Both the position numbers and the translations under genes were made by a program. Positions 21,979-24,545 of a stretch of 64,000 nt of DNA are shown here, in pieces (positions within the stretch are counted from its first letter, which is position 1; each line of letters begins with the position of its first letter). Below the pieces are notes generated by a model. That model was not told the origin of the DNA and did not search any database. It saw only the letters and a list, made by a program, of their open reading frames with translations. This stretch comes from Acinetobacter sp. ASP199 (lineage in GTDB: Bacteria; Pseudomonadota; Gammaproteobacteria; Pseudomonadales; Moraxellaceae): positions 496,001-560,000 of the forward strand of contig NZ_CP062182.1 of assembly GCF_022700675.1 (NCBI RefSeq). Reading direction: 5' to 3'.

Positions 21979-22995
21979 ATGCAAATTTTTTACGATAAAG
22001 ACTGCGACTTATCTATCATCCAATCTAAGAAAGTAGCGATCATTGGTTACGGTTCACAAGGTCACGCGCATGCGCTTAACCTTAAAGATTCAGGCGTTGA
22101 CGTAACTGTTGGTCTACGTGCTGGTTCTACTTCTTGGAAGAAAGCTGAGAATTCTGGTCTTAAAGTTGCTGAGGTTCCTGCTGCTGTTGCTCAAGCTGAC
22201 GTAGTAATGATCTTGACTCCAGATGAGTTCCAAGCTCAACTTTACCGCGACGTAATCGAGCCAAACATCAAGCAAGGTGCAACTCTTGCATTTGCTCACG
22301 GTTTCTCTGTTCTTTACAACCAAGTTGTTCCACGTGCTGACTTAGACGTAATCATGGTTGCTCCAAAAGCACCTGGTCACACAGTACGTTCTGAATACCA
22401 ACGTGGTTCAGGTGTTCCTGATCTTATTGCTATTCACCAAGATGCTTCTGGTAACGCTCGTAACTTAGCTCTTTCTTATGCTTCAGGCGTAGGTGGCGGC
22501 CGTACTGGTATTATCGAAACTTCATTCCGTGAAGAAACTGAAACTGACCTATTTGGTGAGCAAGCAGTTCTTTGTGGTGGTGCTGTTGAACTTGTTAAAA
22601 TGGGCTTCGAAACTCTTGTTGAAGCTGGTTATGCTCCAGAAATGGCGTACTTCGAATGTCTACACGAACTTAAATTGATCGTTGACTTAATGTTCGAAGG
22701 CGGTATCGCGGACATGAACTACTCAGTATCTAACAACGCTGAATACGGCGAATATGTAACTGGTACTGAAGTAATCAACGAACAATCTCGTGAAGCGATG
22801 CGTAATGCGCTTAAACGTATTCAATCTGGCGAATACGCGAAGATGTTCATCCAAGAAGGTGCTTTAAACTACCCTTCTATGACTGCTCGTCGTCGTCAAA
22901 ACGCGGCTCACGGTATCGAAGTAACTGGTAACAAGTTACGTGCGATGATGCCTTGGATTCAAGCAAACAAAATCGTTGATAAAGAGAAAAACTAA
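21979..22995 (+). CDS. ilvC: ketol-acid reductoisomerase (NADP+)
   Basis: Isomerises and reduces acetolactate/acetohydroxybutyrate, the second step of branched-chain amino-acid synthesis. It is a class I enzyme of 338 aa. The Rossmann motif [13 protein letters not shown] is near residues 24-36, and the knotted C-terminal domain carries the metal ligands in [10 protein letters not shown] and [17 protein letters not shown]. Codon choice differs from ilvI and is strongly biased (many CTT, GTT, GCT), as in very highly expressed genes such as ndk in this window. The last 14 codons and terminator are repeated downstream. RBS GCGGAGAC precedes the start. Confidence 0.98.
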
Positions 22996-23023
22996 TTTCT
23001 CGAATCAATTGATTTGAATACGG

Positions 23024-23051
23024 AAACCCACTCTTTTAGAGTGGGTTTTTT
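23024..23051 (+). terminator. ilvC terminator, first copy
   Basis: Stem AAACCCACTC/GAGTGGGTTT with loop TTTTA, then a T tract. Confidence 0.92.
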
Positions 23052-23181
23052 ATATTTATCGTTACGTGCCTCAAATATATGAAAGCATTACTTTCATCTA
23101 TTTTCGTACCTTGGATTCAAGCAAACAAAATCGTTGATAAAGAGAAAAACTAATTTCTCGAATCAATTGATTTGAATACGG

Positions 23182-23208
23182 AAACCCACTCTTTTAGAGT
23201 GGGTTTTT
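23182..23208 (+). terminator. ilvC terminator, second (duplicated) copy
   Basis: Same stem and loop as the first copy, with a T run one base shorter. Two identical terminators therefore stand in series. Confidence 0.9.
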
Positions 23209-23265
23209 ATATTTATCGTTACGTGCCTCAAATATATGAAAGCATTACTTTCATCTATTTTCGTA

Positions 23266-23310
23266 CCTTGGATCCAAGCAAACAAAATCGTAGACAAAGA
23301 AAAGAACTAA
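23266..23310 (+). pseudogene. third copy of the ilvC C-terminal codons (diverged, no start)
   Basis: Encodes the same C-terminal peptide as ilvC ([14 protein letters not shown] and stop), but five codons differ synonymously and none differ in amino acid. It has no reading frame upstream that would make it a gene. The pattern of silent differences points to an orthologous ilvC allele rather than to decay of the neighbouring copies. Confidence 0.8.
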
Positions 23311-23327
23311 GTTCTAATTTCTAAGTC

Positions 23328-23357
23328 AAAAAGCCCTTGTTTTTAACAGGGGCTTTT
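23328..23357 (+). terminator. terminator following the third ilvC-tail copy
   Basis: Stem AAAAGCCCTTGTT/AACAGGGGCTTTT (one G-T pair), then T. Its sequence is different from the terminators of copies one and two. Confidence 0.85.
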
Positions 23358-23424
23358 TTATGCTTGTAAAAACAAAACTGACTTATTTGAGTTGAACTTC
23401 GTACCTCAAATAGGTGAAAGCAGT

Positions 23425-23540
23425 GTTTTTACTCCTTGTACTTCGCACAAAACAGAGTTTTCGCTCCTTGCGCTTCATTCGAAGCAGTACTTTCACTTCT
23501 TGCACTTCGTATAAAACAGTGTTTTGTACTCGTTCATACC
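23425..23540. repeat. degenerate 32-bp tandem repeats (about 3.6 units)
   Basis: Three consecutive 32-bp units (23425-23456, 23457-23488, 23489-23520) and a 20-bp partial unit. Each has the plan GTTTTnnCTCCTTGnnCTTC followed by nnACAAAACAGn variants. They are direct repeats without spacers, so not a CRISPR. Confidence 0.75.
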
Positions 23541-23583
23541 TTGGATCCAAGCAAACATAATCGTTGGTAAAGAGAAAAACTAA
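23539..23583 (+). pseudogene. fourth, degraded copy of the ilvC C-terminal codons
   Basis: Reads PWIQANIIVGKEKN and stop, with two amino-acid changes against ilvC. The 60 bp after it are a diverged version of the sequence after copy one (GATTTGAATGCGGAAAC and a weaker ACTCAATTTGAGT hairpin with a T run at 23618-23638). Confidence 0.75.
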
Positions 23584-23639
23584 TTTCTTTATTTGATTGA
23601 TTTGAATGCGGAAACTTACTCAATTTGAGTGGTTTTTTC

Positions 23640-24545
23640 ATATTTTTCGTTTCAAAAAATGTAAATTATTAGATTTAAAAATAAGTTATTATGTGTTGAT
23701 TTTTTATTGATTTAGAAATACTAGCCCTTAGATTAAGAGGGATTATGAGGCAGTGAAAGATTAAATTTAAGATAAAATAAATTATAAAAAGATAATGGCT
23801 TATACAATTGATTGATAGGTGAAGATTTTTTAAGTATTCTGAGGTTTTAAGAAATCAATAAAAATCGTAATCTTTATATTTAAAATGAAAAATAAATTAA
23901 TTTTTTTAATATGAAGTTAATTGAATTATTATTTGAACTAATTTTAATTCAATAAAATTATAATAAAATTTAAGGCCTGATAAATCTGTATAGAAATGAA
24001 ATAAAAGTTATTAATTCTGATACAAATATTAAAATAGTGAAAAATAATTTATTAAGTTTTTGATTGTAAAAGGTTAATTGTTTATATTGATTGGGTATTT
24101 GCTGAGAAGAATAATGTAAATAAATGAAAAATCAAAAAAATAAATTTAGTAAATTTTTTATTTTAAAATATTGGATTGTAAATTGTAAGGTTTTGTAAGG
24201 TTTTAAGATTTGATGGGTTGTCTTAATTTTTAAAAATAAATTTTAAAAAACAATGATTTATTTTTAATTATTTTTTTATATTAACAATATTAATAGAAAT
24301 TGGGTTTTTATAAATCCATCTATAAACTACCTTGATTATAAAATAATCTTTTTAAAATATAATGATCTACAAGAAATGTGTGCTTTTGTTAAAAGATAAT
24401 AAAATATATTGTGAAAAGTATCACATTTGTATGTTTTTGAGCTAATGATAATAAGATAAGTCTACGGTTAGGTGGCTGCACTCATAATAATAAGAGTTTT
24501 GCATTAACCGTTCTTCGAAATAAATATTTATATTCTTTTAAAAGA
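23640..24545. other. about 900 bp of very AT-rich non-coding DNA upstream of the pilus operon
   Basis: No reading frame of note on either strand. The stretch is visibly dominated by A and T, with long A/T-only blocks, and contains a direct 10-bp duplication GTAAGGTTTT at 24185-24204. It separates the ilvC repeat array from the pilus genes and probably holds the pilus promoter. Such AT-rich leaders are typical H-NS targets, but no site is asserted. Confidence 0.6.

Follow-up and report, generated by a model that had tools for sequence, protein, structure and literature searches.

In the window (the whole 64,000-nucleotide stretch of Acinetobacter sp. ASP199 DNA that was analysed), the gene ilvC has three more copies of its own 3' end behind it, giving four tails in series (Table 1). 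A sequence-only reading of this DNA had described such a series, and the four tails are real and lie exactly where it had placed them. Its account of the copies and their flanks also holds. Units 1 and 2 form a tandem pair of 158 and 157 bp that are a single T apart, pointing to one recent tandem duplication; copy 3 differs from the native end by five synonymous changes (ATT/ATC, GTT/GTA, GAT/GAC, GAG/GAA and AAA/AAG) and by no amino acid, and has a different terminator; and copy 4 is degraded, with three differences from the native end of which two change amino acids, and is followed by a decayed relative of the first flank. A feature that this reading had not mentioned is that all three extra tails start at the same base, directly after palindromic sequence. 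When the tail pattern was searched in the 3.05-Mb genome with at most 2 mismatches, four matches were found, all of them these ilvC tails, and one contig of 3,048,990 bases carries all four. Moreover, that many species have such arrays speaks against an artefact of assembly. No tRNA was found in the window, and a tRNA target was therefore rejected.

Table 1. ilvC and the elements that follow it, in positions of the window
Feature	Position	Strand	Basis
ilvC, ketol-acid reductoisomerase, 338 aa, intact	21979..22995	+	ORF list; relatives
Tail 1, native final 14 codons and stop	22951..22995	+	sequence, tail-pattern match
Terminator 1, type T1 (AAACCCACTC...GAGTGGGTTTTTT)	23024..23051	+	sequence; same inverted repeat listed for copy 2 (I7)
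Linker palindrome 1, class A (ACGTGCCTCAAA...TTTTCGTA), terminates at the joint between TCGTA and CCTTGG	23060..23108	+	
Tail 2, no differences from tail 1	23109..23153	+	sequence, tail-pattern match
Terminator 2, terminator 1 minus one T	23182..23208	+	sequence, inverted repeat
Linker palindrome 2, sequence as in palindrome 1	23217..23265	+	sequence
Tail 3, foreign allele now displaced, with 5 synonymous differences	23266..23310	+	sequence, cross-genome match
Terminator 3, type T2	23328..23358 (arms 23328-23341/23345-23358)	+	inverted repeat I9
Linker 3, palindromes in a chain	23397..23538	+	sequence
Last palindrome of linker 3, class B like, end TTCATA, adjoins tail 4	23499-23538	+	
Tail 4, oldest, decayed, two amino-acid changes	23539..23583	+	sequence, tail-pattern match
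T1-like terminator, decayed, behind tail 4	23612..23639	+	sequence

We searched 175 Acinetobacter genomes with a degenerate tail pattern and parsed 173 ilvC ends from 172 of these genomes (G117 and G152 had no ilvC, G156 had a cut one only, and G080 had two copies). Counting as an extra tail any match with at most 11 mismatches of 45 that lies no more than 1.6 kb from ilvC or before the end of the available stretch, we found one to four extra tails behind the gene in 83 of the 172 genomes (83 of 173 loci), namely one in 62 genomes, two in 17, three in 3 and four in 1, and no second tail in the other 89. Since 30 codon-shuffled patterns matched on average 0.03 and at most 1 of the 173 loci, chance is excluded. 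Under a stricter criterion based on each gene's own tail (within the first 1.2 kb or as far as the available stretch reached), an extra tail was found at 73 of 173 loci in the genus, whereas outside the genus 1 of 69 named loci had one. The latter locus is from Alkanindiges illinoisensis, a member of the same family as Acinetobacter; among the named Acinetobacter loci kept in the same search, 2 of 11 had an extra tail. That about half of the Acinetobacter species examined carry such leftovers suggests that this gene end has been swapped between species repeatedly.

Furthermore, copies of the last 45 nt of an ORF were sought within 700 nt for the 980 ORFs of at least 100 aa in a mechanical list, covering 864 kb (28% of the genome). 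Apart from ilvC, one other match was obtained, at a spacing of 569 bp, and repeats at its start and end suggest duplication of a whole gene. The idea that gene ends in this genome leave such copies as a rule was therefore rejected.

Several features indicate that the extra tails were once working ends. All 14 codons are retained in 44 of the 109 extra tails (exact protein pattern). When the 91 tails with at most 5 mismatches were compared with their own native ends, the 18 more decayed tails being left out, 326 synonymous and 94 amino-acid changing differences were counted (pS 0.51, pN 0.03), distributed as 37/41/342 over codon positions 1/2/3. Native ends of random species pairs gave a pS of 0.575 and a pN of 0.012; by this measure, a displaced tail differs from the gene beside it almost as much as the gene of another species would. 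Four of the 109 tails (in G000, G023, G060 and G114) are identical to their own native end. In the 21 arrays with at least two extra tails, the last was more decayed than the first in 16, equally decayed in 5 and less decayed in none, indicating that new ends enter adjacent to ilvC. Within the window, copies 1 and 2 best matched the native end of G028 (97% and 96%), copy 3 matched the native ends of a different set of genomes (G103, G173, G084, G050 and G046; 92.6-94.3%), and tail 4 with its flank best matched the native end of G163 (87%).

The joint between linker and tail was examined in 91 linkers. C occupies position -4 in all 91, T position -2 in 90, and A or G position -1 in 89; TCRTR directly precedes the tail in 77 of the 91, and the tail itself begins with CCNTGG in 72 and with CTCAGG in 8. 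At the same place native ilvC reads TGATG, with G at -4 in 173 of 173 loci. The linker arms are variable, with 54 distinct inner arms, and mostly pair: a stem of at least 8 was found in 61 of 91 linkers versus 2 of 167 control stretches, leaving 30 linkers with no simple stem of that length, and the mean folding z was -2.85 for the 91 linkers (64% below -2) versus +0.08 (4%) for 168 control stretches.

By eye, the palindromes fall into class A (ACGTGCCTYAAA...TTCGTA), class B (41 nt, CCTTGCGCTTC...GCTCATA), class C (CTTGCRCTCGGGC...CCTCGCTCATA) and class D, which stands before CTCAGG. As these classes differ, the joint could have several origins. The class A pattern had 58 matches in 173 genomes. 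At ilvC there are 24, with stem lengths of 7-15; the 34 matches elsewhere have stem lengths of 3-8, apart from one in G110 that has a stem of 13 and is a terminator-like inverted repeat. Class A palindromes are confined to ilvC and so give no sign of being mobile. The class B pattern was found at ilvC in 20 of 27 places and elsewhere in 7, and the class C pattern also occurs elsewhere. Hairpins like B and C sit within genes that we take to be rhs-like from their ETGLHYNRYRYY motif, and in four of these loci they lie 1-2 nt from CCTTGG or a variant of it. They also adjoin a tRNA-Ile gene at its 3' end (L258) and a tRNA-Lys gene at its 5' end (L387), seem to supply the final codons and stop of several genes, and occur in arrays with a spacing of about 58 bp (for example in G050 and G055). 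Part of the linkers thus resembles a dispersed repeat whose end is the joint.

We compared close genome pairs, defined by less than 3.5% difference over 500 nt of 5' ilvC, with far pairs (G052, G053 and the second G080 copy were left out). In the 75 close pairs whose tails are at least 3 differences apart, which stem from 53 genomes, are not independent and were chosen by the tail mismatch itself, divergence reached 0.90 of the far-pair level in the tail, 0.64 at positions -15 to -1 and 0.37 at -30 to -16. In the 25 close pairs with like tails, the value at -30 to -16 was 0.35, hardly below that of the replaced pairs. The contrast was weaker in all 129 close pairs taken without selection on the tail (0.64, 0.50 and 0.34, respectively). 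In a codon-wise view, divergence in close pairs was raised from about 11 codons before the tail, a range narrowed by the base-wise view, in which the excess fades from about -7 to about -20. From these comparisons, exchange is mostly local, starting just upstream of the joint. Where the end of the neighbouring gene ilvH was also covered (145 genomes, 92 close pairs), the ratio was 0.13 for the ilvH end versus 0.59 for the ilvC end. The ilvH end is thus no hotspot, and a general weakness of the operon's gene ends was rejected.

The units also appear to travel. There are 87 spacer pairs that are at least 90% identical in genomes whose ilvC bodies are more than 6% apart, these pairs not being independent and the median body difference of all pairs being 11%. 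For instance, G033 spacer 1 is 97.3% identical to G140 spacer 2 over 113 nt, although the ilvC bodies of these genomes are 7.6% apart; likewise, G085 spacer 1 matches G168 spacer 2 at 100% over 47 nt despite a body difference of 10.8%. Tail alleles are partly linked to terminator types, T2 accompanying one tail allele in 19 of 20 cases and T1 another allele in 29 of 44, with 127 of 245 ends untyped. Spacers are short, 101 of the 109 measuring between 40 and 179 nt and the largest 392 nt, indicating that the units carry no cargo; spacers of this size hold neither an element between the duplicated ends nor a selected toxin or immunity gene for each unit.

Together, our data suggest that the extra tails are probably former native ilvC 3' ends, which were displaced downstream as foreign ends were joined in repeatedly. 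An incoming 3' end from another Acinetobacter lineage would consist of a tail, usually a terminator, and a linker mostly ending in a palindrome, and would join ilvC repeatedly close to the boundary between TGATG and CCTTGG. The new end would restore the open reading frame, and the old one would move downstream and decay. Afterwards the units may spread, shuffle and duplicate by recombination through their common tails and ilvC. Entry would presumably be by natural transformation, and the palindrome end may guide or fix the right-hand joint. A mobile palindromic repeat that ends in TCRTR may once have inserted in front of CCTTGG, or hairpin DNA may provoke breakage at the joint. Replacement by foreign ends, displacement of the old ones, proximal addition, a nearly constant joint that mostly lies at a palindrome and a short exchanged stretch are all apparent from the sequence comparisons.

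The sequence-only reading had explained the array by repeated replacement of the ilvC end with foreign alleles plus one recent duplication. The core of this explanation is borne out by the differing best matches of copies 1 and 2 on one side and copy 3 on the other, by the divergence of the tails from their own native ends, by the decay of distal tails and by spacers that are common across species. It was incomplete in that the phenomenon is genus-wide with a nearly constant joint, mostly at a palindrome, and in that the exchanged stretch mostly starts no more than about 20 nt from the joint, which ordinary long-tract recombination does not predict. The phenomenon is therefore both broader and more precise than had been proposed. 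Against our own explanation, kilobase transformation tracts would not leave a sharp left border, although single pairs show longer tracts, such as G132 and G167 with 8 differences before the joint over about 110 nt. Homology-facilitated illegitimate recombination, described for A. baylyi and defined in PMC3240628, has been put forward to explain displaced cdiA ends in Acinetobacter (PMC6336857) as well as T6SS modules (PMC5361080). It accounts for the displaced ends but leaves both the constant right joint and the short left tract unexplained. The joint and the tract could be explained by one of two additions, namely a palindrome end at which DNA breaks or anneals, or genuine site-specific insertion.

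A possible but doubtful alternative to displacement by foreign ends is an ancient tandem repeat with birth and death of units, in which an ancestral tail duplication was followed by unequal crossing-over and interspecies homologous recombination, the joint being constant by descent. The extra tail in Alkanindiges fits this alternative, as do the many spacers common to several genomes and the alike spacers within G000 (99.1%), G022 (94.8%), G148 (93.7%) and G023 (92.4%). However, clustering of the linkers at 70% identity gave 30 types that all have C at -4, so that descent alone looks insufficient; the tails that begin with CTCAGG and the many genomes with no second tail also speak against it.

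We consider it unlikely that the ends are placed by site-specific recombination, in which a cassette of CCTTGG, tail, terminator, hairpin and TCRTR would be set at the ilvC end by a candidate recombinase or single-strand transposase, in a manner that might be likened to the insertion of integron cassettes or IS200/IS605-type elements. The constancy of the joint over all 30 linker types, with arms that are variable and mostly self-complementary, is in favour, and so are the proximal addition of units and the dispersed B- and C-like hairpins at gene and tRNA ends and, in the four rhs-like loci, next to CCTTGG or a variant. In addition, the same spacer can stand at differing array positions, G131 spacer 1 being equal to G140 spacer 2 over 113 nt with bodies 3.6% apart. 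On the other hand, positions -7 to -10 upstream of the joint are replaced as well, the integron core RYYYAAC...GTTRRRY was found in 0 of 91 linkers, and no tail away from ilvC was seen by eye among the matches listed for the genus genomes (at most 2 mismatches). A Y1 transposase is present in 35 of 173 genomes, this one included, but is unlinked to the arrays (extra tails in 17 of 35 genomes with it and 66 of 137 without, p=1), and was rejected as the present driver. In the same improbable case, Acinetobacter would possess a site-directed exchange in which hairpin-bounded cassettes of the ilvC 3' end enter between TGATG and CCTTGG by a candidate recombinase or a hairpin-directed single-strand process. 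If so, a gene end would be swapped while the old ends pile up, in an integron-like system whose cargo is the host gene's own tail.

Both e14 and phage 21 use the 3' end of icd as attB, an alternative 3' end with synonymous differences restoring the host gene. The ilvC copies are like these attachment sites in that their alternative 3' ends differ synonymously and restore the gene, and in that the left border of identity is nearly constant, but they have no element or integrase between them. Scars of a phage or integrative element using the ilvC 3' end as attB are disfavoured and very improbable, given that the largest spacer leaves no room for cargo and that viral contigs had no exact match to two tail patterns. 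Matches in the plasmid collection were 4 A. baumannii records of 1.0-4.1 Mb, and those in the phage collection were two contigs with an annotated ilvC and 11 weaker records; on the viral-contig result and the nature of these matches, a phage or plasmid origin was rejected. There is equally little to commend the idea that the array acts as functional RNA, through small RNAs from the 3' UTR, or as a bank of terminators that insulates a highly expressed gene: the window terminators stand in series and the hairpins fold strongly, but the window had no Rfam match at gathering scores, the tail differences are mostly synonymous and at third positions, as in coding DNA and not as in conserved bases, the window hairpins lie 3' of the terminators, and half of the genus has no array.

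Integron cassette arrays are characterized by proximal addition, modular shuffling and structured sites with conserved ends and variable arms, the attC core consensus being RYYYAAC/GTTRRRY. The ilvC arrays resemble them in all three respects, but their linkers lack the attC core and their units hold no genes, and integron membership was rejected for want of core sites in any of the 91 linkers. REP-like palindromic repeats are short palindromes with conserved ends that are dispersed at gene ends. Palindromes like classes B and C may be akin to such repeats, with the difference that the ilvC palindromes are coupled to a captured gene end.

With its partial 3' ends behind an intact gene, its foreign alleles and its older ends in distal position, the ilvC array belongs to the serial 3'-end displacement arrays, among which the lack of cargo, the housekeeping gene and the hairpin joints are new. 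Orphan cdiA-CT/cdiI and rhs-CT arrays likewise consist of displaced 3' ends that retain homology to an intact gene and stand in order downstream of it with 5' to 3' addition, but as described there these ends comprise toxin and immunity genes and are thought to be kept for use (PMC6336857, PMC4927057). The ilvC units, by contrast, consist of 45 bp of a housekeeping gene, leave the protein unchanged and have no cargo, and their joint is nearly constant, mostly with a palindrome. Effector displacement in the T6SS of Vibrio cholerae (PMC5361080) is similar in its repeated 3' insertion and displacement, and differs in that immunity genes are conserved there and in that the passages of that paper examined describe no constant joint; the words 'palindrom' and 'terminator' are absent from its main text. 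No prior report of the ilvC array was found in the openly licensed (CC0/CC BY/CC BY-SA) literature.

In the ilvC arrays one can read how species have repeatedly exchanged DNA at one site in a biosynthetic gene. The arrays hold no cargo and no protein change for selection to favour, and the case separates the mechanics of 3'-end displacement from the toxin selection under which it has been studied. In addition, a nearly constant joint beside hairpins offers a testable case for hairpin-directed recombination. A caution also follows, in that Acinetobacter ilvC 3' sequences do not track the rest of the gene.

The several terminators behind ilvC are most simply viewed as by-products. Furthermore, the first downstream neighbour ORF falls into 32 groups across 166 genomes, indicating that the downstream region is also variable in gene content.

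Behind the array of extra ilvC tails (copies of the last 14 codons and the stop), the window carries a cluster of fimbrial type, whose usher was recovered by Pfam search (PF00577, E 2.4e-24); its secreted DUF4402-like subunit scored below the Pfam cut-off, and the open reading frame between these two genes had no Pfam match. The first neighbour behind the array is the same as in the window in 14 of 166 genomes.

At the ilvC loci of other Acinetobacter genomes, a 231-nt perfect run of the heptamer TTTCTAA lies between tails 2 and 3 of L153 (G114), immediately 3' of a displaced tail. 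A Y1-transposase match in G167, located ~210 nt downstream of the ilvC tail, is perhaps an insertion into a linker, the sequence preceding an extra tail. Two full copies of ilvC, identical over the first 185 nt downstream, occur on contig C14 of G080, a genome with a listed contamination of 9%.

Away from ilvC, a dispersed palindrome was found at the 3' ends of unrelated genes in five loci. Judged by eye from the sequence, the last codons (..ERG) and stop codon of these genes appear to come from the palindrome.

Coordinates of the features described
Feature	Location	Position	Strand
Fimbrial-type cluster	window	24546-28274	
Y1-transposase match	G167:C31	485149-485508	
Dispersed palindrome GAGCGAGGATAAGCAAAGC...GAGCGCAAG	L384, L388, L389, L390, L410	near 1485-1530	reverse
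Tandem hairpin arrays	L390 (G050), L395 (G055)	from about 1500	

The tandem arrays, behind a non-ilvC gene, comprise up to 5 hairpins at a spacing of ~58 bp, and similar series occur in G052, G053 and G056. Inside the rhs-like genes (named by a sequence motif) of L246, L250, L259 and L260, the 41-nt hairpin (resembling class B at ilvC) lies antisense at the same conserved position, with CCTTGG or a variant 1-2 nt away on the opposite strand; as far as the sequence viewed shows, it breaks or shifts the reading frame in L246 and L260. Hairpin elements also adjoin two tRNA genes: in L258 a tRNA-Ile gene at its 3' end, and in L387 a tRNA-Lys gene at its 5' end.
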